DNA of 64,000 nucleotides from Diprion similis (taxonomy: Eukaryota; Arthropoda; Insecta; Hymenoptera; Diprionidae). The notes under the pieces are model-generated. The model had not been told where the DNA came from, searched no databases, and saw only the letters and a program-made list of their open reading frames with translations. Location: NCBI RefSeq assembly GCF_021155765.1, contig NC_060106.1, positions 21,726,031 through 21,790,030 of the forward strand. The letters are read 5' to 3'. This document shows positions 34,805 through 56,778 of this stretch, piece after piece. Within the stretch, counting starts at the first letter, position 1. The number at the start of each line of letters is the position of its first letter. The position numbers and the translations under genes are program-made.

Positions 34805-36496
34805 TTACTGAGTACCCAAGATCGTCACAAATTCTGTCTCAGCATCGCTTACATCTCGGCATCGTGGGGTCGTCGTGTTTGATAAGGGACGTTGAACGAC
34901 GGGCGACGACAAATCGTAGGTACGTCCGGTGCTGATGGTGCCTCGACTAACGCCATGTCCATCGTCCTGTTCACCAGGTTCACACGAGTCGCCAGCTGCT
35001 GAAGCTTGTTCGAACTTTGGCGTCCGTTCGAACGACGACGATGACCCATTCCAACATGGTTCAAGGTATACGGGGATCAGCTGGTGGTCGGAATCTGAGT
35101 CAGTATCGGAGCCGCTCTTGGAACGAACTGAGAAGGATTCTGCGGTGTCTATATCCTTAAGGTCACGCACTTTTGAGCTGATTTGAAGACATTTAGCTGA
35201 TCGAGTCTGCTGGTCTGAGGCCAGCACGAGACGTTTGATCAGTTCGCGAACGTAGGCCAGAGTATGAGCATCGCCAGCTTCTTCCCCAGCGAATTCCAGG
35301 CTCCTTAGTACAGTTGCAGCCTCGGAAATTCTTCCCAATTGCGTCAAACTCTGGCCGAGAAGAAGCCGTCCGTGAAAAGTCCACTTTTCGGAACCTGCAG
35401 CTTCGGCGGTGTCTAGGCATCTGGTGGCCAGCTCGAGGGCTTTCTTGTGATTGCCACTTTCCAGATGACACCTGCCGATCTCGTGCAGCAGCCAGGCTCT
35501 AGGTATCGGCTCGTAAACACAGGGTATCAGCCTCTCCCAGGCACGTGCAGCCGCGTTGAGGTGGCCAAAGGTCAGATGTACCTTGCCCAGGGTGACCAAG
35601 GCCTGCGTCATGAGAAGAGGAACATCAATGGCTGACGCAGCTCGCGTCATCTTTGCCGCTGCAGCCGTGGCACGGTCGTGTCGTTTGAGGGCGACATAAG
35701 CGAGGGCGATGATGCGATTGGTCGTTGCTTCGTAGCGGAGCAGGATTGTCGAATCGGTAGAGAAGTCATGGTCCAAGTTGGTTAGGACCTCGTGGCCAAT
35801 CCGGAGTACTGTAGCCAAATCGCCGCTGTTTAGAGCCATCTCCATGCTCCTGACACGTTCCGTTATCCTCACTGCTCTCCGTTCCACGGTCGTCACATTT
35901 CTGCAAGGTTGCGGTGGCGATTGAGGCTTACAGGGAGTTCGCCAGAAGTCAGTGCGCTTATCGAAGAAGCCAAGAATTTGAGGGACGACGGCAACTGGGT
36001 CCGAGGACTCGGCGAGGATGCGGGAAGCCCTCACGGCCGCGGACTCGGGGCAAATCACCGCTGCCTGTTGGGCTCCGTTTTTGGCCTTGGGTAGAAGCAT
36101 GTTCAGGGCCTTGCTCGGGTGCGTTAACGCGTTTATAGCCGCGGCTGTACGTCGTGCTGCTACTCCGTGACTGCTGTCCCTGGGACAGACGCTCGCTGCT
36201 CGGTGATAGAGAACCAGCGCAGTCTCGTAGTCGCCCTTGTAGTGAAGGTTGTCCGCTTCTCTATGCAGTGCCTCGGCAAATTGTCGATCCGTACCTCTGA
36301 GCAGACGCGAGCCGTTCCTCCGCTGACGGATGCGGGCGCGGGCCTCGGCATGGGCAATAGTCGTCTCCTGCGGCTCGTCGGATGTTTCAGTGGCGGTTTC
36401 ACCTCGCAGAAAGACGTCCGGTAAGGGATTGAACCGATGTTTGGGGCGACACAACGGCGTCCTGGCAAGGGTGGAGTCCGCGAACCAGTCTGTCAT
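34805..36496 (-). CDS. ODAD4/TTC25-like TPR protein, single-exon copy
   Basis: One uninterrupted frame of 563 residues. The start ATG (36496-36494) is supported by an in-frame TGA 15 bases upstream. TPR-like helices occur at about residues 73-105 (with ALVLYHRAASVCP) and again at about 255-410, including RAWLLHEIGRCHLESGNHK at 333-351. A TDFWR motif lies at 182-186. The family signature of a TDFW segment followed by a WL-HEIGRC TPR matches outer dynein arm docking complex subunit 4 (ODAD4, formerly TTC25). That protein helps attach outer dynein arms to axonemal doublets in cilia and sperm flagella. The C-terminal 130 residues are Ser/Asp-rich and probably disordered. It lies 1.3 kb downstream of a second, diverged ODAD4-like gene on the same strand. 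Lack of introns suggests a retrocopy or intron loss, but the frame is intact. Confidence 0.8.
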   Translation of the reverse strand: MTDWFADSTLARTPLCRPKHRFNPLPDVFLRGETATETSDEPQETTIAHAEARARIRQRRNGSRLLRGTDRQFAEALHREADNLHYKGDYETALVLYHRAASVCPRDSSHGVAARRTAAAINALTHPSKALNMLLPKAKNGAQQAAVICPESAAVRASRILAESSDPVAVVPQILGFFDKRTDFWRTPCKPQSPPQPCRNVTTVERRAVRITERVRSMEMALNSGDLATVLRIGHEVLTNLDHDFSTDSTILLRYEATTNRIIALAYVALKRHDRATAAAAKMTRAASAIDVPLLMTQALVTLGKVHLTFGHLNAAARAWERLIPCVYEPIPRAWLLHEIGRCHLESGNHKKALELATRCLDTAEAAGSEKWTFHGRLLLGQSLTQLGRISEAATVLRSLEFAGEEAGDAHTLAYVRELIKRLVLASDQQTRSAKCLQISSKVRDLKDIDTAESFSVRSKSGSDTDSDSDHQLIPVYLEPCWNGSSSSFERTPKFEQASAAGDSCEPGEQDDGHGVSRGTISTGRTYDLSSPVVQRPLSNTTTPRCRDVSDAETEFVTILGTQ

Positions 36497-37752
36497 CGTC
36501 GTGACACGTCACGTGCTTCGTTGGAACAACTGCGAAGACAACATGCCATGCGTGAGGCGCAACCAAAATGGCGATGACGCGGTAGCAAAGTCTATTTGCG
36601 TAAGCTACGCTCAGAGTCAGTCCTGGAATTGTTACGGAGATTTTAGTTGGAGGGATGAGATGACCGTGTCGCGGGGTAATCCCAGAGGATAGCGTTGAAC
36701 TGGGTATTCTCCGTGCTGTGTAGTGGATGTAGGTTCAGAAGTCTATTAGAGTGTTGGGTTGACCCCTAAGTGCTATGTTAACCCACGTAGGAATACATCG
36801 GTTTTGTTCGTATTACTCATGTTGGGATGACCCGACATCCCGACTTGTTGTCACACCGAACTAAACTACACAGTCAGGATTTCGGTCAAGAGTTTATCCA
36901 CGCGAAAAGAATATTAATTACGATTCATAATCTCATCGCATGGTCTCAAATTTATTGCCGAGAAGAGTAGGAGTCTACATGTCTTTTTAACTTACATATC
37001 TCTATAAATTTTTCACTGCGAGTTTGAACTATAATACTAAAACGGAAGATACGTTTTAATACCACTTACGTGAGTTGAATATCTCCTGAGGAAGGTTTGC
37101 GGCGTAAGACAATACGTCTTTAGGTATTTAACACGTTATCTATATGAACGTGATGGTAGGTTTACTTGGTTTATTGTACACCCTAATTCGCTTGTATATG
37201 AACTACGTTTTACTGACATATTTGTTGGATTATTTTTACATTGATTACGGTTTTTTTGGTAGTTGGACTTTATAAATAACATCGTTATCCTACTTACAAA
37301 TTACAAAAAGTGTATTTCGATATTCGTAATAATTTGCACAATTGACTGGAACTCGGGAATTCAGGATCGATTGGTTGAACAGTAGCACGAAGACTAATAT
37401 TAACTACTTTAATTGCCAAGACGTCATAACGGTGTCAAGCGTGCAAAAATATTATTATTCAATGTTTTCCAAAAGAAAAATTCATCCGAAGAAAGAAGAT
37501 GAAAGAAGAGTTTGTTCTATCATATAACGCCATTTGAGAAAATAATCAATAATACGACAACTTCGAAGGCTCGAACCTCTATGAATACGCGGAAAAAATA
37601 ACTTTTTATGGTCATGATCTGATTCCTTGACCTCAAAAATACTCGAAACACATGCTTTCAGAAGTAAACATTCACCCGAGACACCAAAAAACATTGAATT
37701 ACTTTATGACGCCATTGAAGCAGCTACCCGAGGTTAAACTGCCTGGGTTCTA
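36497..37752. other. Spacer between the two ODAD4-like genes
   Basis: AT-rich; it presumably holds the promoter of the single-exon gene (right of 36496) and the 3' UTR of the three-exon gene (left of 37753). No canonical RFX X-box was recognised by eye, although ciliary genes often have one. Confidence 0.4.
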
Positions 37753-39750
37753 CTAGTAGTCCTCAAAGTCCACCCAACCGAGGGCACCGCGAGTGGGAGC
37801 GAATTGCTGCAGTAGAGCATTCCGGGCATCCCTTTCGGGGTCCTTAGGTGGTGCCGGGAGTATCGAATTTCGTCGACAGGACATGGGGAATTTGTAATTG
37901 AAGGCCTTGCAGCCTGGCATGACGGAGAGTCGGCGTCTAGCGGGGACGACGTTCATACTGCGGAAAAGGAAGTCCACCCGGTTTTTCAACTCCTCTGGCA
38001 TAAGATCGACGATAAGCATCTGTCGTTTTACGATGCTGTCGACTCCGCTTCTCGACTCGAAGTCAATTTCGTCTACGAGCCGAATAGCATTCTGATAGAA
38101 ATCGACGAGGTAATCGATTCCGAGGCGCTTAGCGTTCAGCATGGCGACCTGAGCAGCCTCTCGCGCCTCGTTTCGGTTATGCTGCATAACCTCAATCCTG
38201 AGGAAAATATGATTCGCGTTCAAGGCCCAGTGCTCGTCCTTGGCGTTGGCACTCGCGTCTCGCGCCTTTTTTGCGTAAAAACGAGCTAAGTCAAACCGCC
38301 GTGTCTCGAAGTTGAGCTTGCAGAGATCGTGAAAGAGCCAAGCGAGTTCGAGGGGTTCCGAGGCGAGTGAGAGCCGGCGGCGAAAGACCTTCAGAGCGTG
38401 TTTGATGTTCATCGTTGGTACCCATGCAAGATCCGAGTCCCGCGGTAGTTTGGCAACTCTTATTCCCAGATGATGTTTCAGATAGCGTATCTTCGTCTCA
38501 CCCTCGAGGCAAGTTAGATTTCTCGGGTCTATGTAGGCCCAGGCAGCCATCTTGTATATGGTGTTTAGACACTTCCGTTTTAGTGGAAACATTCGTTCAC
38601 TATAAGACTCGAATTTGTCCTTTGTGCGGTCGAGGTACTGGAAGAAAAGTGGGTAGTCCCGCTTCATTCTCGCTGCGTGCAATCGTAACAGCAGGAAATC
38701 CGCTTCAATAATTATGTTGTCACGACGAATCTGCTTCAGATGCAGAACGTTTCTCTTATGTCCAAGCGGCCAGGCCTTCCGGTCAAATCGACGGGTGTAG
38801 TAAGGTTTGCGTATGCGGAGGACGTCTTGTCGATAGCAGGACTTCCGGTAGGACTCTTCAGCTAGGGCGTATATCTCCTTGCTGCTATTCGCGTTCGCTG
38901 ACCAGACTGCACTAGAGTTGAGGGTCTCTTCCATCATGTCTTTGTCGTGAGCCATCAGTCCTAGGTAGGTCTCAGCCAGAACGCGATGAAGCTGTTTCAG
39001 ATAAGCCCCCAACTTTGCCACTGGATCGTTTACCTTCAGCCTGGTATTCTCGTCGTCGATGGCTAGAGCCAGAAAATATTTTAGACTCGTTCCCAGTCAT
39101 TCCTGATGGACGAAGTGAAAGTTGCAGTCTATAAAACGGAACGTACCCGCAAATTCGTCCTCCTCTTCGCCGAGCTTCGCAATCAATTCCATTTGTCGCT
39201 TCTGAACTTTTTGAATCCACGGAAAAAGTTCTCTGAGGGCAATCGGCGATGTGTTACGCCCAATACAGTCGAGGACTGTCTCGTTTCCCTGAAATACTCC
39301 CAACTCAAAGGGGAACTCATGCTGCTGCATTCCTTGATGCGCATGTATCAGACTGTATCCGAACTCCGCGATCTCGAAGAGTGTTTCGACGCGTCTCCAT
39401 TTCACCCGTAGGTTTTGCGGGTCTGGAAATCGAGAAACAGTGTTCCGTCAGCCATGCAGCTTTGTGAACCTATCTCCCAAAGTCTAACCTATTTCCATGC
39501 ACTTATCGATGACCTCAGCAGCCGCATGATACTTGGTGTTACGACTCAGAGCCACGCTTAGTCCTAGCAATGTCCTGAGGTCACTGGTTTCCGCGTGAGC
39601 TTGCGCCGCGTTGAAAGCCTTGATCGCACAGGGATATGCTTCAAGGCGGGTAAATCGGTAGCCCCATTCTCGATAAAGAACCTGTGCCCCCAAGATGTCC
39701 TTGGTGTTGCTACCTGCGCCTGAAGTCGGGGTTTTTCCAGAGGTAGGCAT
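37753..39750 (-). CDS. ODAD4/TTC25-like TPR protein, three-exon copy
   Basis: Three coding exons on the minus strand join in frame: 39750-39489, 39422-39147 and 39062-37753. They give 615 residues, close to the length of vertebrate ODAD4. An acceptor 13 bases upstream of the ATG suggests a further non-coding 5' exon. The N-terminal TPR segment (about residues 17-85) contains YREWGYRFTRLEAYPCAIKA. The middle contains FFQYLDRTKDKFESY. A TPR block includes LAWLFHDLCKLNFETRRFD, equivalent to the WL-HEIGRC block of the neighbouring copy. The C-terminal tail is basic and short. Family role: docking of outer dynein arms on axonemes; in an insect this points to sperm flagella and chordotonal cilia. 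Identity to the neighbour is low, so the duplication is old or one copy evolves fast. Its 5' end faces the MATH gene head-to-head. Confidence 0.8.
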
Positions 39751-40507
39751 CTTCGAATAATCTCTGCAAATACACACTTGAGTGTCTAGGTTATCGGTGG
39801 GAACAGGTGATCTATGCGCTATTTTCCTCTTTAATTAGTCGAGAATGTTCCCCCGTTCAGTAAAGTAGCCGCACATTTGACCTCGGGGATATGTTTAGCT
39901 GATATCCTGCATCGGGTACTACTTAATGGAACTCACATAGAGGTGGATTTGTTACTTATCTACTGTAATTTTGACAATTTACATCTTCACCGAACCCGAA
40001 TCCAATGTGTCAAAATGTTAACAGCCACTTTCACGAGACGTATGTTTGTTCGTTTATTCGAATCGACTTCTTCATTGTTTTCACTGAACAGACATTGATT
40101 ACACTTCACTTTATTATTTAATCTGCCAGGAAAATGTACGAGTCAATGCCCTTACCACGACCCAGTATATAGTATAACATTCATTCAACTTCCGATGCTT
40201 GTGCAAAGTCCTATTCAACTCAGAGCTTATAGTATAGTTATTACCTCCTCCAAGGCTCGAGAATTTTCGCAATGTTCTGTAGCTTCTATTGTGTAATTTA
40301 GCAGAAAGCTGTTTGTGACGCATTTACAATTAGAGCACCAAGCTGAACGAAGTAATGCTTGATTTCACAGCAAAGAGCTCTTGAGCAGAGGGTGGCACTT
40401 GAGTCAAAGGACGGGCTGAGGGCCCGGGATCAGGCTGGGAAGCGCGGGGGTGCTCCAGGCCTGCAGCAGGGCGCGAGATCTTCACCTAAAACAGCAGGAA
40501 TGCGGTG
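39751..40507. promoter_or_regulatory. Divergent intergenic region between ODAD4-like gene and MATH gene
   Basis: About 750 bp separate two start codons pointing away from each other, so both promoters should lie here or in upstream introns. A good acceptor (GATTTCACAG at 40361-40370) suggests that the MATH-gene exon begins at 40371. Between 40371 and 40507 sequence is GC-rich, and the main frame has a TAA at 40487-40489. Confidence 0.45.
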
Positions 40508-40508
40508 A
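40500..40508 (+). promoter_or_regulatory. Minimal upstream ORF overlapping the presumed start codon
   Basis: ATG CGG TGA is a one-elongation-codon upstream ORF whose last base is the first base of the presumed main ATG (TGATG arrangement). Such minimal uORFs can lower translation of the main frame or feed termination-reinitiation. This matters only if 40508 is the true start. Confidence 0.3.
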
Positions 40509-42338
40509 TGGCTCTTCTCTACAGATTCGCGCAGCTGCCCGATCGCGGTGGTACGCGGGTCTTCTCATTTGTCGTAACGAGGAGCGTCGTCCGCGACCCA
40601 GAACGCGACGTAACCAGCAAGGAACTCGTCTGTGGCTTCCAGCGATGGGCTGTCGCCTTCTCACGCGGCGACAAGGTACGTGCTAAACCCTAATCGCATA
40701 AGGATTGCTAACGCTGCTAAATACAGCCCTTGAACCTCTTGACGTTCACGTTCCAATATGTCCAATCCTTCGATAACCAAGCATTTGTTGTAGGATAAAT
40801 GAATGCAAAGTAGGTTAGAACTTGTTAGCTTCTTCAAATTAAGAAATTTGATGTGATCCGTTGAGTCGATATAGTCACTCTAATGCTGAAATCGAATCCA
40901 TTGGTATCCTATTCGATGTGTTACCATTTCACTGCACTGTTTTCTAATCATTTTACTCAGCTGAATTCATTTCCACTGATCACAGGTCCTGGGTGTTTAT
41001 CTGGTATGGCGAGGAGCTGCGCCAGGTTTGCGAGTCTACGTCGACTTCACGTTCACCCTCCTTAACCGGGAGCACTTTTCAGTGAACGAGGGTTTCTCCG
41101 GGAAGCGGGTTAAGTTCACGTACGATGCTCCGGCCCAGGGTAACCGCAACTACATCCCAGTTTCGGATCTCTACAGTCGGAACTTCGCCGACCCCAACGG
41201 AGAATTCCAGCTCGAGTTGTCGATGGCGAACGTCCGTACCGTCTACACTGCCGAGCTGCGGATACCGACCGGAGTCTTCTCGGCAGGACAGCAAAAACCG
41301 GAGAAACTGGAGACCGGGTACTTCACATTCGGTGGGTTTGACTGGAATCTCGTGATCTACCCGTTGGGGGATAAGGAGGCCATCAACCACGAGACCAGCG
41401 TTTCAGCCATCTCAGCTTCCGGTCCTGGCGCCGCAGCCTCGTCCACGGGTCACGGAAGGCAGGAGGGACGGTTGAGCGTTTACTTGGCGAGGCTGACGGG
41501 CTTCGATCACCGATGCCGAGTGCGTTACAACGTCACCCTGGGGGAGGGGGACCGGAGGATAGAGTCCGGGCACATCGAGGACCTCTCGGACGCTGACGGG
41601 CGCGGCTTTGGCTGGCATCCGCGGATTCGGTGGTCAGAAATAGCCCACAAGGGCGTCGTCCGCGTCTCTCTCGAGATGGTCGAGGCGCGCACCGTTTCCG
41701 AGGTCGGGGTCCAGGCCCTGGGACCGCCGGTGCTGCCGGCTGCGCCGTGCTACGACCGTGACAAACAGGCCTGGGCACTCAGGGCGGACCTTCATTCGGA
41801 CACGGTGAGGCTGCACCTCGTCTACAAAGACATCCACAACGTACCGAGGAACCATCTGCGGTATGTCGGATGGACTGCGTATTTGATGAGAGGCGAGGAG
41901 GCCGTTGCTCTACCCGGAGCTCCGTTCGGCCGGTACTACGCTCAGGAGGCGGTCGACGAGGGTATAATAATGGAGACCAGCCTCGGCGTGACGGAGGTCA
42001 AGGATGTCGAATGTCCGTTCATAACTGACAAGGGGCAGCTCAGGGTGCGGCTTGAGTGGAACGAGGGCCATCTTCTATTCCAGGCCACCTATCACAAGTA
42101 CGACGATGTTTGCCGTGTTCACAATCAGCAAATGCGTAGAGAGATCGCCGCCCTTCAAGCCGAGAACTACTCGCTCGAGCGGCAGCTATTCAGCTACCAG
42201 CAAAGCCTCGCCTTCGCTCAGGCCCAGGCTCAGGCCCAGGGAGAGGAACCGGACGTCGTTGACCCCGAGCATCACCACCATCATCACCACCACCATCATC
42301 TCGAACGCTCGGCGTCAACAGACACTGAATACGCCTGA
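40508..42338 (+). CDS. Protein with three MATH/TRAF-like segments, coiled coil and His tract
   Basis: Two coding exons join in frame, 40508-40675 and 40986-42338, with GT-AG ends, giving 506 residues. Three MATH-like segments are visible. The first is at about residues 44-150 (CGFQRWAVAFSRGDK, then VYLVWRGAAPGLRVYVDFTF). The second is at about 166-285 (TGYFTFGGFDWNLVIYPLGD, then GRLSVYLARLTGFD). The third is at about 311-430 (AWALRADLHSDTVRLHLVYK). A coiled coil (about 432-475, QMRREIAALQAENYSLERQL) and a ten-His tract (about 486-495) follow. MATH folds bind peptides of receptors or ubiquitin-ligase clients; no RING, BTB or protease domain is seen, so a scaffold role is a guess. The start is uncertain: ATG 40508 follows an in-frame TAA, but an acceptor at 40524 could link to unseen upstream exons. 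The frame continues past the TGA at 42336; see the findings. Confidence 0.75.
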
Positions 42339-42758
42339 CGCGGGGCCGAAGCCAAGACGCGCCATGTCCACCATAACCGTCGGTACGCCGATAATGGGGG
42401 GAATTACGAGGACGATGATGCGGATGGAGAGGATGACGTCGGGGCTGAGTTTCGGAGGGAATCGGAAGGGCTGGAAATCGCCACACCCGCGTTATGGAGA
42501 GAGACTCCTCTTATTGTGGATCACCATCAACGCAGTATTGTTCAGCAGCCAAAATCCGTTGCTGGATCGAGAGGTCCACCTGCTGGGAACGTCGCTTACG
42601 ACCACGGTGTCGATGGGGTCGCACCGAGGCCTATCAAGCCACAGAAAACCCGGCGAACCACATTGTGGGAAACACTCACTGGCCTCGTTTGTTCTCTAGG
42701 CGCATTGGCCACTAGGGCAGCTAAATTGGCGACTCGCCGAGGGGGCGAGCCTCTGTGA
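42336..42758 (+). other. Open frame continuing past the TGA stop (possible readthrough extension)
   Basis: After TGA (followed by C) at 42336-42338, the same frame runs 139 sense codons to the next TGA at 42756-42758. Its composition is protein-like: an acidic patch (NYEDDDADGEDDVGAEF), then TPALWRETPLIVDHHQRSIV, then a Leu/Ala-rich end (WETLTGLVCSLGALATRAAK). Possible explanations are programmed readthrough, a small spliced-out segment, a sequence error, or plain GC-rich 3' UTR. Another frame is also open here (to 42699), which weakens the statistical argument. Confidence 0.4.
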
Positions 42759-43067
42759 GACGAAGCCACCTCGCCAATACCTGCAAGTATATAAGTAATA
42801 GTGGGAACAGGAATCGCCTGAAGAACTGGGATTACGATCCCCGACTCCAGGTGTCCTGCACACAGTCAGTCTACGTCTTTATTTATAAGTCTATAATCTA
42901 CTTGTCAATTTACCAAAGAACCTATTTTCCTCTAAAGACTTTTTCACGTATCGTACTCGAATAATACTATATCGTAACATACATTAACGTTCATCAGACT
43001 AGTTAAATGCGCGACCCCGTTATCGCTGAAATAACACTTAATACTCAGCTTTTTTCACCCTGTATTC
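42759..43067 (+). other. Probable 3' UTR of the MATH gene
   Basis: Sequence becomes AT-rich after the second stop. No clear poly(A) signal was found before the MITE that follows. Confidence 0.4.
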
Positions 43068-43258
43068 GGGCGGAGGGTCAAAACTTGGAAGAATCAATAT
43101 CTGCAATAGCCGATATATCGAAACTTCAAACATGCGAAAATAAAATAACAAAAGTCAAGATTTCGAACAATTCATCTTTCGTTATTTTATTTTCACGTGT
43201 TTGAAATTTCGATATATCGGCCGTCCTAAATATTTATCCTCACAAGTTTTGACCCCCA
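43068..43258. mobile_element. MITE family C, copy 2
   Basis: This is the same terminal inverted repeats as the copy at 13894-14153. It starts GGGCGGAGGGTCAAAAC and ends GTTTTGACCCCCACT, with the shared internal block CATCTTTCGTTATTTTATTT. It lacks about 70 bp of the central loop of copy 1, so the two arms are almost adjacent and would form a near-continuous hairpin. It is probably inserted in or near the 3' UTR of the MATH gene. Confidence 0.75.
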
Positions 43259-44205
43259 CTCTTAAATTGTAAACACGTGCCCCATGAATTCAAAGTTAAG
43301 TGTACCCTTGCGATTTTTCCTCGCGAGTCTACCGAAGCGCTCAAAATATCCATTGAAAATTCAACCGCCGGATAACATACCAGCAATCGATTGTATTGGA
43401 AAGGATATTTGATTTTTTTGGTTTACAGTTATCTCTCGTATGACAACCTCAGGCAACCAGCCGTGTCGGCGAATAATTGTAAAGCCATTCAGTATCCTCT
43501 TCTTTTAAAAGAAAAGCTTTTGCAAATGCGTCCCTGTGAAAAGCGCAATTTTTATCAACACAAGTGTGTATTGTTCATGTGATCTGCACGGAAATAATCT
43601 CACCTACTCGACGACTCTGACAAGCAATACGGAAATAAGTGAGTGCTTGACTATTCCTGAAATCCTGAGAGAGTGTATAAGGCCTGACTTGAAAACCGAA
43701 AGAATTTCAATAACTAGAAATTCAAAAAACTTTAAATTATGCAAGAATTTCAATTAATTTCAGACGAATTCAGGATACTGCTGACTAACGATATACGTGT
43801 ATAATCTACACTTGTTTCAAGCAAATGGTTAAACGTTAAACCTCTCGAAACAGCGATCCATAACATGCATCTATAATACCGTGTAATACGCAGCAGGGAA
43901 ATTGTTAAACACTGGGAATCCATCCATGATCTTTCCCCTTTTATGTCGGATTATCCGGGTGGCTGTAGTTACTGGAAAACTCGGATCGTATCTCCTTTAC
44001 AACGCTGTGTGGTTAACGCCGAATACATTCGATATCAACCCTGCGGGGTTTGCTGAAGGCTGAGGCAACCCTCATCTCGCGCCATTGCAGAAATCCCTTC
44101 TCTGACTAGCAGAGCTGTATACTTTGTACATATATATACCTGTACCATAGATATACACACGCATACATTTACACTATAGTCGAAATTCTATTCTTACTTC
44201 ATGAA

Positions 44206-44229
44206 ACACACACACACACACACACACAC
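44206..44229. repeat. (AC)n microsatellite
   Basis: About 12 perfect AC dinucleotide units. Confidence 0.9.
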
Positions 44230-45970
44230 GTACACGTAACGTTATACACTGTTTCATGTCTATACCTATGCATCCGCGTGATATTGGAGTGGTATGGGCA
44301 TAACTATCCTACGCGTGGACATGTGACGAGTACTTCAACGCCTATGTGCAGGACAATCGATTTTTATTGGGGTATAAGGAACCAGAGAGGCTTCTGCACC
44401 TTTTATTGTCGTTGCGAAGCTCAAATGATTAGATGGAACGAAGTCGTTCTTACAATTAGAGGTCAGAACGTAGGTAGGTACCTACATCCTTGGACGTGCG
44501 CTACGTCAATCTGTTTGTACTCTAAAAATTTATCAGAAGACAATTCTATTCTACCATATCAGACAAGCATATATAGTCAAATAATAATGCTCCATAAAAA
44601 AAAAAAAATGATATTTATTTATAGTAATCTGTAAATTTCCATCGATTAATTGTTTATGTAACAAATTCGTCAGTCGAAAACTGACGTCTCAATAATTACA
44701 ATTAGATTCTTCAGACGATGAATCATGTTTCTTGATGTTACAAATATTTTCTTGCGCGATTTAATATCACTTATACGTATAAAGAGGCATTCATAAACAA
44801 CATTGAAGAGACACGCAATTAGTAATTAAATAAGTATATGGCAGTTGGCTCGTGGGCTGCAGAAAGGGTTTGTTTAACTCAACTGGAACATACCCAGAGT
44901 CAGAATAAAGAGAGAGAAATCATATTCTTGTGGCTCACCCAATCGTTAAAATACTCGATGCAGACGCGACGCGCTTTGTACCTATATCAATATAATATTA
45001 ACGTTAATTAACACTGCACAAATTATACACACGCACATCAACTACATTTAAGTTATAAAGACACAACATACAGACACAAAACTCACGTCAGGTGCACAAT
45101 AAATTATATACATATTTAAACATTACACGTTAATTACGTCCTGCTTGTACAATCCACTATATAGGTATTATCGAGATAATATTGTACTATTATGATAATG
45201 TTAATTCAAAAAATGTAAACATTTTTCATTGCCTATATATGTTATATATGTATATATACACATATATACAAACATATATATGTATCTATGACACATTATA
45301 CCTGCGTTAGAATATATTTCATGACGATTCTCTTCTATTAATTGTTATAGTTACACGGTGTTGAATTATGCATATTGTGTTGAATTGTGTTCTAACTCGT
45401 ACATTGTATTGTATATCGTGTATAATTGTATCGTATCGTAACGTATCGTAACGTATCGTAAATCGTATAGTACTCTACGTAGTACCGTACCTACTAAATA
45501 GACAGCACCGTAAACCCCTTGACTCTTATCGAGTAGGTATACATGTGTAATCGTACGTATGTACTACATACGTACATAGTATATAGAAATTAATCCTGTG
45601 ACATATATTGTGGGTATTTTATTATGATAAGACAGAGTGACCGAACTACAAAATTTCAGGACAAAGGATTCGTCAATTGTGAATGGTTTTCTTATTAGTC
45701 TTACCTTAATTTCATTCACTATAGCTTGGTGGTAAATGTGTTCTGAAACGTGCTGAAATAACTATCGCAAATTTTCAATTATCATTCAATTATTGGTAAT
45801 AAATGAATTGAAATGATTATTTTGACTAAAAATATTTACTTATTCGTATGTAAGGAGACTCGGATCTTTCGGCAAGGTTCGATTATGTTCTTCTTTGTTT
45901 TTTTTTTAATTTTGTTTTTTTTTTCTAATGCGTCAGGTATTCCTGATAAGGTGTACAAATCGAAGTTCGT

Positions 45971-48316: not shown

Positions 48317-51300
48317 ATGACGCTCGCTCAACGCTTCAGCAACCGCCGTCTCGTGGTAGATGCTCTCGCCCTAACCTTCGGCATCGGAGCATGGATCGGG
48401 GTCAACGGAATATTCGTTCAGCTACCCCTGCTCGTCGAAAACGCCCCGGAAGAATGGCACCTTCCCGTTTACATGACGCTCGTCGTCCAGCTGGCAAATA
48501 TCGGTCCGATACTTTACAGCTTTTACATCAAGTAAGTTCACGCCGTTTGCCATCCATCTACATCAGCTGAACTAATAACAGGTGACAGCTCTGCCACTTA
48601 CCTTAGTGCTCCGGGATCTTGTTATGTCTCTGTAGATATTCTCAAGAGTTACGTCAGCAGGGAAGTAGATGAAACCCAATTGATATGACGATCTTTACAG
48701 AGAGAGAGTCATAAAACCTAATAACTATCGACCTCATCGTTTTAACGGGGAAATGTAATCTACACTGCATGGAAAATTTTTTTATACACATCTTACTTCT
48801 CTTGAGGTGAATACATGTATGGGCAGAACTTCTCTGGAATAAAATCTACATGAATTGTGGTAGATCTATCTCTAAAGCGTATTGTAACTTTTACTATTGG
48901 TTTTGTAAATCTTGTCACAATTGCTCTAGATTTAACTCCACAAAGTCCTGTCCATATACTAACCACAGGAGATGTAAAATCTACATTATTTTTCTTTCTC
49001 CGTATCCGGAACTAATTAGTCATGCGAACAATTCGCAGGAAGGAAAAATCTGACGACGTTGGCGTTTATTATTTTATTTACCGATCCTAAATTGGAGCGA
49101 TTTTTTTGCAGTTCGAGCAAGCCAAACACGCTATTGAATTGATCAAATTGTGTCACGTTAAATTAAAAAATTGGCCTCGCTTAGAAATTGCGATTCATTC
49201 TGCCATCCGTCACGTTTTCCTCGTTTTGATATATAATTTCCAACTCCAAGCGTATACGGAAACCGGAAGTCTTTGCAAATATGTATGTAGACACTGGTAG
49301 ACCCACCATGCTTCAACGTATTTGTACCGCTAGTTTTCGATCAGCAAAATGATAACGAGCGATCGTTAGGCTGGGGAAAAGAGACCTAACTGTAACATGT
49401 ATATACAATACATGTACATAATCTACGTCGAAGCGATACGACACTTGATCCCGCGGTCCTCTCAAATCACGGTATACATGTTATATAACGTACGTGCAGC
49501 ACAGGCGTTTCTCATGTCGGAATTATTGTTTTCGTTGGGTTATACTAACAATAAGGCTGGATGCCCGACAACGGCTTGATACTTATTGTTGATTGATTGA
49601 TTGATTGATTGATTCTCATTACTATACTGGTATTTCCAATTGAGACCAAAAATTTCAGAACCTCGATGTTTTTTTAACGAACAAATAAACGTTGTGCGAG
49701 ACTAATCACCTCATAAAATTTAAATACTAGTCATCAGAATCTATGTGATATAAACTTTGCAAGTTGCACTTTTGTACACCTTTAGGTCTTCCCGACAAGC
49801 CCAAAACTTTGTCTACAGCTGAATATTGATATTTGCGAGTATGTACTGCACATTCGAGATCTTCTCTCTATCTCTCTCTCTCAGCTTTCGCACTGACCAA
49901 TCAATTCAGTAATCATTGAACATTCACATTGATAAAGCAATGTATCCTGAGAAGTAGCCGTTATTTTTTCTCCTACCAACTGTGTGATGAAACTTGTATT
50001 GACGTACAAATCTTTCATGTAATTTCGCAAATTGTTTGTTCTCTGTACACGAGAGTGGTAGTGATTAGTTGGTTGAAAATACATATGATTCTTGTACTTG
50101 GCGCTTGGTTGTGTGTTGCTTCATTGATATTGCACAATCGTTTGCTCACAATCGATAAAAAGTGTGTATGTAGTTTGCGATCGTACTTTTACATTAGATG
50201 TATATTGATGATTGACGAAAACTGATATTCTTCCTTTTACATGATTCTTTTTTAAGCACAAATTTTCAAATTTGGGACTAGTTATGCCTTGCTGTGAATA
50301 ATAGTCGGATCGAATTAACGAAAGTAAAAAATTGTGTTCTCAAAGAGAGGGATTGAGGTGTACTTATATAAGATAATAATATCACATTGGTATATGATTT
50401 ATAGTTGCTCGTCGTCAATTATTTTAACTACCTCATAAGTCGTTCGTATTTATTACTTACTTTTACCGGCATTCACTCGCGAATGAGACAAGTTGTCGAG
50501 TCATTTAACTCCGTTACGCATGTAGATTATACCTTGTTTTTCACCATTCCACAGGTACATGAGCCGAGCACATGATCATCTGTTAATATACATTCTCTTG
50601 GGCGGCGGTACGATCGGGATGATTTGCTTGATCTTTGTCCACGAGAACACCTCTTACATGTTCGGTAAAGAGAGCTCAACGGCTCTGCTGAGTCTGATGT
50701 TCGTCGCAGCTTTGGTCGGCTGCACCAGCTCGGTTCTGTTCATGCCCTACATGCGTAACTACAGAGAGATATACCTGGTCTCTTATCTCGTGGGCGAAGG
50801 GCTGAGCGGATTTTTACCCAGCATCATAGCGCTGATACAAGGTGTCGGTGGGAACGCACAGTGTGTGAAGACGGCGAATTCAACCGCCGATAACCCCACG
50901 TGCACGGAGTACGTTCCGGACCCAAGGTTTTCCACCTCTGTGTTCTTCACCCTTCTCAGCATCATCCTGTTCCTAAGCTTCTCCGCTTTCATTGCCCTCA
51001 ATACCCTTCCCATCAGCCTCAGCGAACGCGTCAAGCCACCAGGAAGCACCGAAGCTCTTCCAACCGACCCCGACGCTGCTCCGACCTTCAAGTTTAACTC
51101 GGGATGGAAGATGCCGAGGCGAACTTACATCTACCTCTTGGTCATGATGGCCGTTATATGCGCCCTGGGAAACGCTGTGCTCTCCGGGATCCAGCCGTAC
51201 GCCTGCCTCCCGTATGGCAACGTGACCTATCATTTGGCCGTCACTTTGGGCGCGATAGCCATTCCTCTCGCCATGTGCATTGGCTTCGTTGTGAAGAATC

Positions 51301-51647
51301 CTCGAGTCGACGTACTGAGCCTCTTGACAGCGGGTATCCTCGCCCTGGCAGGTTTCGTCTCTTACTTGGCGGTCAAGTCGCCTGCACCACCTATGCAGCA
51401 CATGTGGATTGGCGAATTCGTCGTCGTCGTTTCCTGGATCATCGTCAGTGGACTGATCGGTTTCGTCAAACTAGCCATTACCACACTCTTTCGACCGGAT
51501 CCTGGCAGGGGGTTATTCTTCACGGGGGTGGCGACGCAGGTTGGCTCGTTAAGCGGGGCTGTGCTCATGTATTGTTTAGTCACATACGCCGACATATTCG
51601 AGAAGTACAATCCTTGTGATGACTGCACGGACGTTGGTAGCAGTTAG
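48317..51647 (+). CDS. Riboflavin transporter, SLC52 family, copy A
   Basis: Two coding exons, 48317-48531 and 50555-51647, join in frame across a 2.0-kb GT-AG intron to give 435 residues. The protein is strongly hydrophobic with about ten to eleven membrane segments, the SLC52/RFVT layout. Family-typical stretches are IGVNGIFVQLPLLV near the N-terminus, ALVGCTSSVLFMPYMRNYRE, then VGEGLSGFLPSIIALIQGVG, and YACLPYGNVTYHLAVTLG in the C-terminal half. SLC52 proteins carry riboflavin (vitamin B2) across the plasma membrane; animals cannot make it. The short loop between the halves (about residues 230-255) is much smaller than in copy B. A tandem paralogue follows 3.6 kb downstream on the same strand. 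Confidence 0.92.
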
Positions 51648-52755: not shown

Positions 52756-55307
52756 TTATTACGGCTGATTTTATTCCATTGCATACCACCTGCACCAAAG
52801 TTTTCCAGTGTCAGTACAAATGTCTGGTCAAATCAACATTTTCGCTGCTTTTTTTCTCTTTTGGATGACATTTTTACGCATAAAATGTGTTTTATACACT
52901 CGCGACGATATTATGACAACCTGTCATTCAAAATTACTCGACTACATCGAACTTCGACGGTTATCGCGATAAACATAAATAATAATTATTTCTTCACCTG
53001 TTCTCGTTGCATTTAAATACAGAAAAAAATTGTTTAAAGTTTAAAATAGTTTATTTAACGAAATATTCAACTTCCAGTAGCATCTTTGAAATGAAACTAT
53101 CCAGAAGCATGTAATATCCAATTACGTAATGGAAGATCCGAACGCATACACTTTGGTTAAGTATACGTACACAAACCTGTCTACGATATGTTTGTTTTAT
53201 ACTTGAACTTGAGTAACCTTTTCAAAAAGTATTATACATATTATGTGGAATTTTCGTTTCTTAATATTGAAATGAATATAATGGTAAGATGGAAGTGACG
53301 TAACGATATCACCGTTTCAGGCTACGGACAAACAGGATGTGGTTACACGGTCTAATCGTAAAAAATACACGGTCAGCCTTCCTTACAACAACCATCAATA
53401 ATTGATACAAATCTCGCAGTTCATTCCAAATTTAAATTCCTCAGTTAATATCAATTCCAAAAAGCATGGCACTTTATAGTGTACATCTGTGATCCGAGTA
53501 TTTGTCCTACATCCTCTGCTATTGTTTACACACCCATTTCTGTACCACTTTTTCAGATAACATTATCTAAGTATGCACGTCGCATTTACTTCACCGTTTT
53601 ATAAGGATTTGCAAATATTAGTCTTGTCTACTTGAATTCTAGGTTGTCACACAATTCGGAAAGATGCAAAGCCCAAGTCAATTTGTTTAAAATCTAAATT
53701 TTTTACCGAAAATTCTGAGGTCATGACACTGATTGTGAGTTGCAGCAGCTGTTGCCTTAAATACCGAATAGATTGAATCTAAACTCAAAACTAAGCGCAG
53801 TATTATTTTAACTGGTTTTATCGTATAAATCTAACCGATTGATCAAGGTGCAACAAACTGTTCAGTTCGACATTTCGCATGCTGTCATTTAGTCATCTGC
53901 AAAACTTGACAAGTCTTGTGTTCACTACGAAAAGTACGAAAAAAACCTAATTTGTAATTTATATCATTGGGTGGAAACATGATAATTTATACTCTACTAT
54001 GCGCGTATTTACCTAAATTTGCCACTATCAGTACGACTGCAACTATCTCTCGTTGTTTCTACAAACAGTTTGGTAAGATGCGTCACGATCGTAAATGTTG
54101 CCTACTCCCGGGTGCTGGAATCTTATTGTTTTCCAGATAAGTGGCAAGCCGGGAACCAGGCGGTAGGTACAGATTAAACTTCGCTCTTCTGTGCCTTCAA
54201 CTGTTATTCAGATGTAGTTGTATTCAATAATTAGGCAAATTATGCGACCTATCTGTCGCTGCAAACCAGAACACTCCCAGAAACAGGAAGCGTGTATTGC
54301 CAGTAAACGCAGGATGTGAAGTTACACGGTGAAAAATTGTCGCACCAGTGAGTGACACTATGTGCTTAACCATTTTCATACTATTATAAACACTCAATTT
54401 CAAAGAAAAAAGTGACAAATTCGAGTGATATCTTGGTACTATTCATTTATGGATAAAGCTGTATTTTTAAAACATGCAAAAAATGTGATTTCCATAGTCG
54501 AATAACTATAATTCAAAATCGGATTCAAAATTTTGTCAGAACTATATTTTTTTGTACATTTTTTCAGATGGTAAGACTAGTTACTGAAAAAAAGAACGCA
54601 CTTCACGTCGATCTGTGGAAGTTGAATAAGTGTACGTCCAAAGTGATATTTCATCTCGTTTTGTCAAGTTTTTTATCGAGGTGCAGTTTTATACGAACAA
54701 CGATTTCATATTGGCAAAGATGAGTAAAATGCAAATATTATTAACGGCTGGAAAATAGCAGGTAATGTAAACTCCGTTGTCAATAATAATACATTACAAT
54801 TTTTTATCCGTACTGCAGTGCGTGACAAGTGTCTTTCATGTTTTCGTTGCTGTTACCCTTTCGACAAAAGAAGAAAGTGCTAAAGTTACACGAAAATCAG
54901 GGAACAAATCTTGATCCCGCAATTCGAGAATGACTTCAACGAGTTTTATTTATTTATTTATTTACTTTTTTTTCAAAATATAAGCATGTTTCGTTTATTA
55001 TGGCTTACTAGATTTCAGGCAGTCGTAAAGGTGTGAAGTAACGATTTTTTCAATCATGCAACGTTGCACTAACGTTACTGACTTCACCCTGATAAAGTTA
55101 CGCGAGTTGAACAGTCAATTTTATGTACTAAGTAAAGAAAAGACAGAACAAAGTACATGCTGTTAAAATACTTTTTGTGTAAAAGTTTTGTGCTATGTCG
55201 CTACCTTGAAGGAATCGAATGAAATTTTATACGCAAGACATGATAATTTACAATCTATTTCAGAATTTCAAGTCATTACCGCCATTCCCATTGTCTTTTC
55301 AATTGCA
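52756..55307. other. Spacer upstream of riboflavin transporter copy B
   Basis: No supported gene. It should contain the promoter and any upstream exon of copy B, because a strong acceptor sits at 55306-55307. A diverged family A element ends at about 55096. Confidence 0.4.
54880..55096. mobile_element. MITE-like family A, diverged copy 2
   Basis: The right end TAACGTTACTGACTTCACCC (55070-55089) matches the right end of the element at 8509-8742. Internal blocks such as GAATGACTT and TGGCTTACTAGATTTCA align with counterparts there. The left end is too diverged to place precisely. Confidence 0.45.
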
Positions 55308-56778
55308 GGAACAATACGAAATTAGGCAAAAAGAAAAAAAGGACGGAACCACGAAAGACTCCGCAAATAGTGAAAGGACACGACTTTTGCACCGTGAAAT
55401 GCCACGTCTAGCAGGGTGTAACGGAGAGTCGGGAATGACTCAACGTAGATTCCTAATCGACGTCCTGATAGTAATGTTTGGGATCTCGGCGTGGGTTGGC
55501 GTCAATGGAATCTACGTCCAGCTCCCGTTGCTGGTGGCAACGGCTCCTGAAGGCTGGACACTGCCAGCTTACATCGTCGTCGTAGTACAAGCCGCTAACA
55601 TTGGTCCCGTGTTCTACGCCTTATCCCGAAAATTCTTCCCCAGGCTCTGCAAGGAGTCAGTCTGGATATCCAGCCTTCTCGTTCTTGGAAGTGTAGCCAT
55701 GGGCACGCTGGCGTTTGTCTACGAAGCAAAGACCAGCATTAACGGGACCGAACACAGCGTAGCTCTCCTAGCTCTAATATTTTTTACTGCCTTAGTGGGC
55801 TGCTCAAGCTCCGTCCTCTTCGTTCCATACCTCAGAAACTTCCAGGAGATTCACCTTGTCTCATTTTTCGTCGGCGAGGGGCTCAGCGGCTTGCTTCCTA
55901 GTGCGGTAGCCCTCGTCCAGGGTGTTGGCGGCAACGAAGACTGTAAATCACCCGACTTGAAGTCAACCAATGACACCGCATCGTCCGATCAAGTTCCCCA
56001 CTTCTCACCAAAAATTTATTTCCTCTTCCTCTTTGGCTTGCTAGTTGCTTCTACCTGTGCCTTCTGGATACTCGAGTACTCCTTGGTCTCTCAAGAGAAG
56101 CGAGACCCTAGGTTATCGAGGGTGTCCCACACACCCCCTCACAATCGGTGTCCATCTGACGAAAAGATTTCCTCCGAAATTCCGGAGTTCGAGCCCCGTA
56201 CAGCCGAAGAAGTCACCGAATCGACCAGCCTGCAATCAGACGTGACAATTGCCTACAGCGGTGTCGTCAGAAGTTACCTCTACGTTTTGATCGGTCTGAT
56301 CTGCTTCGCGGGAAATGGATTCCTACCGGGAATACAGTCGTATTCCTGTCTCCCTTATGGTAATGTCGCCTACCACTTGACGGTCACCTTGGCTCACCTA
56401 TCGAATCCCATTGCGTGCGTTCTCGCTCTGTGGATGCCTCCACCGGGTCCACGTGGCATCTCGAAAGTCTCGGCCTTGGCAGTTATCGCCAGCACGTATG
56501 TCACTTGGCTGGCATTCTCGTCGCCGACTCCACCCTGGCACGGCACCACCCTCGGCACAATCCTCGTTGTCCTTGCCTGGATTGCCTTGACCGGCCTCGT
56601 GACCTACGCGAAACTCTCCATCACCGCGATATTCAGGCGAGAACCAGGGGCCAGCTCTCTGTTTTACGTCGGAGTCGTCACTCAGGCGGGATCCGTTGCT
56701 GGTGCCATATTCTCTTTCGTTCTTACCAACTATTCCACCCTTCTTACTTCATACAAGTCTTGTGTTCCTTCCTCGTAA
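55308..56778 (+). CDS. Riboflavin transporter, SLC52 family, copy B
   Basis: A single long coding exon ends in TAA at 56778. A strong acceptor (CATTGTCTTTTCAATTGCAG) precedes 55308. The frame is open from there, so coding may begin in an unseen upstream exon. Otherwise the first Met is at 55399 (459 residues) or 55435, which aligns with the N-terminus of copy A. If residues before 55399 are translated they include ERTRLL, resembling an acidic dileucine sorting signal. Core motifs match copy A: WVGVNGIYVQLPLLV, ALVGCSSSVLFVPYLRNFQE, VGEGLSGLLPSAVALVQGVG and YSCLPYGNVAYHLTVTLA. The central cytoplasmic loop is longer (about 60 residues, Ser/Glu/Pro-rich) than in copy A. There is no intron at the position used in copy A. 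The likely function is plasma-membrane riboflavin uptake. Confidence 0.9.

Follow-up and report, generated by a model that had tools for sequence, protein, structure and literature searches.

Stop-codon readthrough at a TGA-C probably gives rise to a 646-residue form of a MATH-like gene in Diprion similis, a reading to which we assign a probability of about 55% on the strength of one genome's sequence. The gene lies within a 64,000-nucleotide stretch that was analysed as a whole (hereafter "the window"; positions 21,726,031 to 21,790,030 of contig NC_060106.1, NCBI RefSeq assembly GCF_021155765.1). In the proposed mechanism, the main product would be a 506-residue MATH-like protein ended at the TGA-C, and a minority of ribosomes would decode the TGA-C as sense via a near-cognate tRNA, as is known for TGA, with decoding past the stop adding a 139-residue tail to yield the longer form. 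The preliminary description of this DNA had raised readthrough as a possibility, and the proposal was borne out with respect to a coding signature in frame with the gene, a GC-rich composition that gives way around the second stop, the TGA-C itself and the lack of a convincing splice pair in a matrix scan. It was borne out less well over the first 23 codons of the extension, which do not separate the reading frames, and passage of the TGA by ribosomes, its rate and the role of the tail are parts of the explanation that we infer.

The two exons of the gene (40508-40675 plus 40986-42338) join into a first open reading frame (ORF) of 506 amino acids (Table 1). Pfam MATH_2 matched the large exon in two stretches (E = 2.6e-06; exons 1 and 2 scanned separately), and because its score of 28.2 bits lies under the curated gathering cut-off of 32, the gene is named only "MATH-like". 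Neither the MATH exon nor the extension had a match in NCBIfam. In the insect's own genome no second copy turned up, as the extension (E up to 10) and the MATH exon (E up to 0.001) each returned only a self-match. Ten histidine codons in a row (42270-42299) end 36 bases upstream of the first stop. Matches of the MATH exon to solved structures were set aside as probable His-tag artefacts, since all 60 of the matches listed (of 120) overlap the poly-His tract; with the C-terminal 70 residues removed, the exon had no match to a solved structure up to E = 10.

Table 1. Coordinates of the MATH-like gene, its candidate extension and the downstream signal (positions within the window).
Feature	Position	Strand	Basis
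Exon 1, coding part	40508..40675	+	ATG at 40508; translation and splice joint, donor AAG/GTACGT
Intron 1	40676..40985	+	Joins frame; donor score 5.8, acceptor score 3.3 (splice matrix not trained on this genome)
Coding part of exon 2, comprising a MATH-like region, an end resembling a coiled coil (by eye), a poly-His tract and the first C terminus	40986..42335	+	Open frame; Pfam MATH_2
First stop, TGA then C	42336..42338 (C = 42339)	+	Sequence
Candidate readthrough tail, 139-codon in-frame extension	42339..42755	+	Open frame; coding-phase tests; no in-frame ATG
Second stop, TGA then G	42756..42758	+	Sequence; next in-frame stretch only 11 codons
AATAAA, putative polyadenylation signal	43139..43144	+	Pattern scan

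Frame 0 is open from the TGA-C to the second TGA, which agrees with the 139 further sense codons that had been claimed, and the claimed lengths of 506 and 646 residues follow by arithmetic (506 + 1 + 139 = 646 for the predicted read-through form). Genes of the readthrough class have a second ORF, in frame and at least 10 codons long, beyond the first stop, and the extension, at 139 codons, falls in that range. At five other presumed terminal stops in the window, the frame ran on for 5, 1, 1, 8 and 0 codons, and TGA-C occurred at none of the five. Because no in-frame ATG was found in the extension, a separate start within it is unlikely. Openness over 139 codons arises by chance in about 1.5% of dinucleotide-matched random sequences (1.4%, or 856 of 60,000, in a second set) and is therefore not decisive alone on a genome-wide scale. 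The preliminary description had also warned of a second open frame in this region, and the +1 frame is indeed open over 42025-42696, overlapping the extension; a minus-strand frame is open as well (42190-42510).

To evaluate coding character, a codon model was trained on the other long exons of the window with the MATH gene excluded (bromodomain/DUF3512, two SLC52 riboflavin transporter exons, one TPR exon and two long exons that matched nothing above cut-off), which yielded a small training set of ∼2,700 codons from one window. Segments of 417 nt were then scored against composition-matched nulls. Under this model, to which the MATH gene contributed no codons, the extension had a codon-phase z of 2.07, compared with a range of 0.33 to 4.68 (median 2.2) for 20 coding segments, three of them from the MATH exon, in which the segment's own exon was left out each time. 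None of 244 noncoding segments reached 2.07, including none of the 22 with GC above 0.47. These controls came from 16 random 10-kb stretches (368 segments by arithmetic), and since segments near open frames of >110 codons were dropped to leave the 244, the control is biased to sequence that is clearly noncoding. The margin by which frame 0 leads the next best plus-strand frame was equalled by 10 of the 244 noncoding segments, and both measures together by none. With openness ignored, the codon score alone was reached in 226 of 20,000 nulls; when the frame also had to be open and to score as high, under a model that excluded the MATH gene from training, 8 of 60,000 matched random sequences qualified. 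A position-specific base model gave +7.7 for frame 0 and −5.5 and −31.7 for the other plus-strand frames, with the observed value reached by 10 of 20,000 nulls. When the signal was split, synonymous codon choice contributed z = 2.1 and the amino-acid part z = 1.0. Over the first 23 codons past the TGA, frame 0 and frame +1 were not separated (−4.24 versus −4.72). The mirror frame on the minus strand scored like frame 0 (−0.034 versus −0.040; higher in the first half, 0.18 versus −0.06), and the test thus gives codon phase and not strand; the plus strand of the extension is argued from continuity and from stops, two of which interrupt the mirror frame. The extension looks like coding sequence and not like 3′UTR, a result of moderate strength from a small training set.

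GC content was 0.60 upstream of the TGA in the MATH exon and 0.58 over the extension; it was 0.40 over the 300 nt past the second stop, of which the first 142 nt had 0.45. GC at third codon positions (GC3) fell from 0.72 in the coding sequence (CDS) to 0.54 in the extension (odds ratio = 2.0, z = 3.6, compared within amino acids), and a drop was also found relative to the last 139 codons of the CDS only (odds ratio = 1.8, z = 2.3). No comparable step was detected inside the CDS itself (odds ratio = 1.25, z = 0.95).

The first stop lies in a leaky context that is typical of readthrough genes but not required, as TGA followed by C is the typical readthrough context in published candidates (PMC5100048). 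Folding of the 105 nt from the TGA gave no excess RNA stability (z = +0.84, with 162 of 200 shuffles at least as stable; one sequence folded). In published candidates, a predicted RNA structure lies within 100 nt downstream of the stop in 9% of cases and is not a defining feature (PMC5100048), from which it follows that most readthrough genes are without a stable one. The 8-mer CAGCAGCA, reported in or near 23% of published candidates versus 8% of other transcripts (PMC5100048), is absent from 40501-42760, where seven of its eight bases match once, at 42543.

A rather unlikely alternative to readthrough is that a nonsense change in the species or the individual, or an assembly error, truncates one long protein, which the gene formerly encoded or still encodes in other individuals; the downstream stretch would then still look coding owing to a change that is recent or not real. 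One base change in a sense codon is enough for this, CpG transitions are a common route to nonsense changes, and the view is limited to one genome with a single copy of the gene. Recent nonsense changes would leave such a signature according to Jungreis et al., who excluded stops found only in close relatives as possible recent nonsense (PMC5100048). However, a very recent nonsense change does not explain why GC3 drops already at the TGA, and TGA-C is the favoured readthrough context. The fall in GC3 weakly favours a rarely translated tail over a very recent nonsense change, but it could also reflect weaker selection on a disordered tail in a gene that was long until recently. Assembly error is countered by an assembly that looks chromosome-scale, with 60 contigs for 269 Mb (the window is in contig 2, and contig 1 starts with arrays of TTAGG, the telomere repeat of most arthropods), and by the position of the TGA outside any homopolymer. 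It is also conceivable, although improbable, that the MATH exon is alternatively spliced to the downstream stretch with loss of the TGA, which would provide two C termini without readthrough; such splicing is one of the causes eliminated through manual screening by Jungreis et al. (PMC5100048). Weak donors are present at 41805 (score 4.1) and 41861 (2.9), with an acceptor-like site at 42700 (2.8). Nonetheless, a scan across the TGA with a splice matrix that was not trained on this genome revealed no convincing donor-acceptor pair. The same matrix scored the best in-frame pair (41805 to 42549) at 4.2 versus 9.1 for the real intron, and use of that pair would delete 744 nt, including 531 nt of first-ORF coding sequence. 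The top pair overall (41805 to 42700, score 6.9) breaks the frame, and the 470 nt leading up to the TGA (from 41861) contain no donor with a score above 2.

Less probable still is that the open frame is a by-product of an ordinary GC-rich 3′UTR or of coding on the other strand. The further open frames on both strands fit this account, as does the mirror frame that equals frame 0 in phase score, and with a chance of ∼1.5% some of the thousands of genes in a genome will show an open frame of this length. Yet openness and score are jointly rare in random sequence, none of the 244 noncoding segments scores so high, GC falls near the second stop and not near the first, and the two stops in the mirror frame argue against coding on the minus strand. 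We regard it as extremely unlikely that the TGA, which is the selenocysteine codon, encodes that residue here. No SECIS element was found among seven Rfam matches (E up to 5) in 40300-45000, and loss of selenoproteins has been reported for Hymenoptera, Lepidoptera and Coleoptera with complete genome sequences (PMC2500217). A genome-wide SECIS search also returned no match, but control genomes were silent too, which makes that search uninformative.

Readthrough at this gene would resemble that of Drosophila and Anopheles genes (Jungreis et al. 2016, PMC5100048) in having a TGA with a 3′ C and an in-frame, coding-like second ORF whose codon signal is weaker than that of the first; in published readthrough regions, too, the coding score is intermediate between that of first ORFs, which are coding, and that of third ORFs, which are noncoding (PMC5100048). 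It differs from them in that there is no RNA structure signal here, the full CAGCAGCA 8-mer is absent and one genome was used. A bumblebee study described 851 readthrough candidates, of which at least 306 were estimated to be functional (PMC7826183). As in the present case, readthrough in an insect was predicted from sequence and TGA-C was enriched, but the bumblebee candidates were obtained with PhyloCSF on 19 bumblebees and four honeybees, in contrast to the one genome here. Literature searches on readthrough in MATH-domain genes and in Hymenoptera showed no readthrough report for this kind of gene among the papers listed; the one paper matched for MATH domains was set aside because its title and abstract concern N-terminal extensions in cancer. 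If the reading is true, an insect MATH-like protein gains a long C-terminal tail that is missed by standard annotation, which ends at the first stop, and a testable readthrough case has been found from one genome. The general picture of readthrough would be unchanged, as hundreds of insect genes have already been described.

Ribosome profiling in Drosophila has identified C-terminal tails added by readthrough, comparable to the tail proposed here, with nuclear-localisation signals in 10 of those extensions and predicted transmembrane segments in eight (Dunn et al. 2013, PMC3840789). In contrast, the present extension was predicted from sequence. No known domain was detected in it using Pfam, solved structures or NCBIfam, and its two matches to solved structures were weak (best E = 0.27). 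A hydrophobic stretch near the end of the tail has a KD19 of 1.23, which is lower than the usual transmembrane threshold of ∼1.6; shuffling the final 40 residues reproduced this value in 0.34% of cases, and it was also attained, across the full extension, by 29 of 400 random open translations. The amphipathic look that had been ascribed to the end of the tail proved weak, with 14% of shuffles attaining the highest helical moment of the final 40 residues. Our guess is that the tail would be mostly disordered, carrying acidic and basic patches and then, close to the C terminus, a hydrophobic segment, and that it could change where the MATH-like protein localises or which partners it binds. We also put forward, tentatively and as a possibility with the odds against it, that the extension constitutes a conserved, regulated readthrough switch, in which one mRNA would supply two forms, the longer with a hydrophobic-ended tail of 139 residues, for different locations or partners.

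Downstream of the MATH-like gene, an inverted repeat at 43075-43255 spans the AATAAA at 43139; its 80-nt arms are 83% complementary and enclose a loop of 21 nt. The repeat matches miRNA families under Rfam's cut-offs and may be a small inverted-repeat transposon. On the minus strand, opposite to the MATH-like gene, the region 34808-39096 contains a TPR-protein exon (34808-36508) and a long exon without a Pfam match (37756-39096). Two neighbouring plus-strand exons (50526-51644 and 55210-56775) match the SLC52 riboflavin transporter family and are probably a tandem duplicate.
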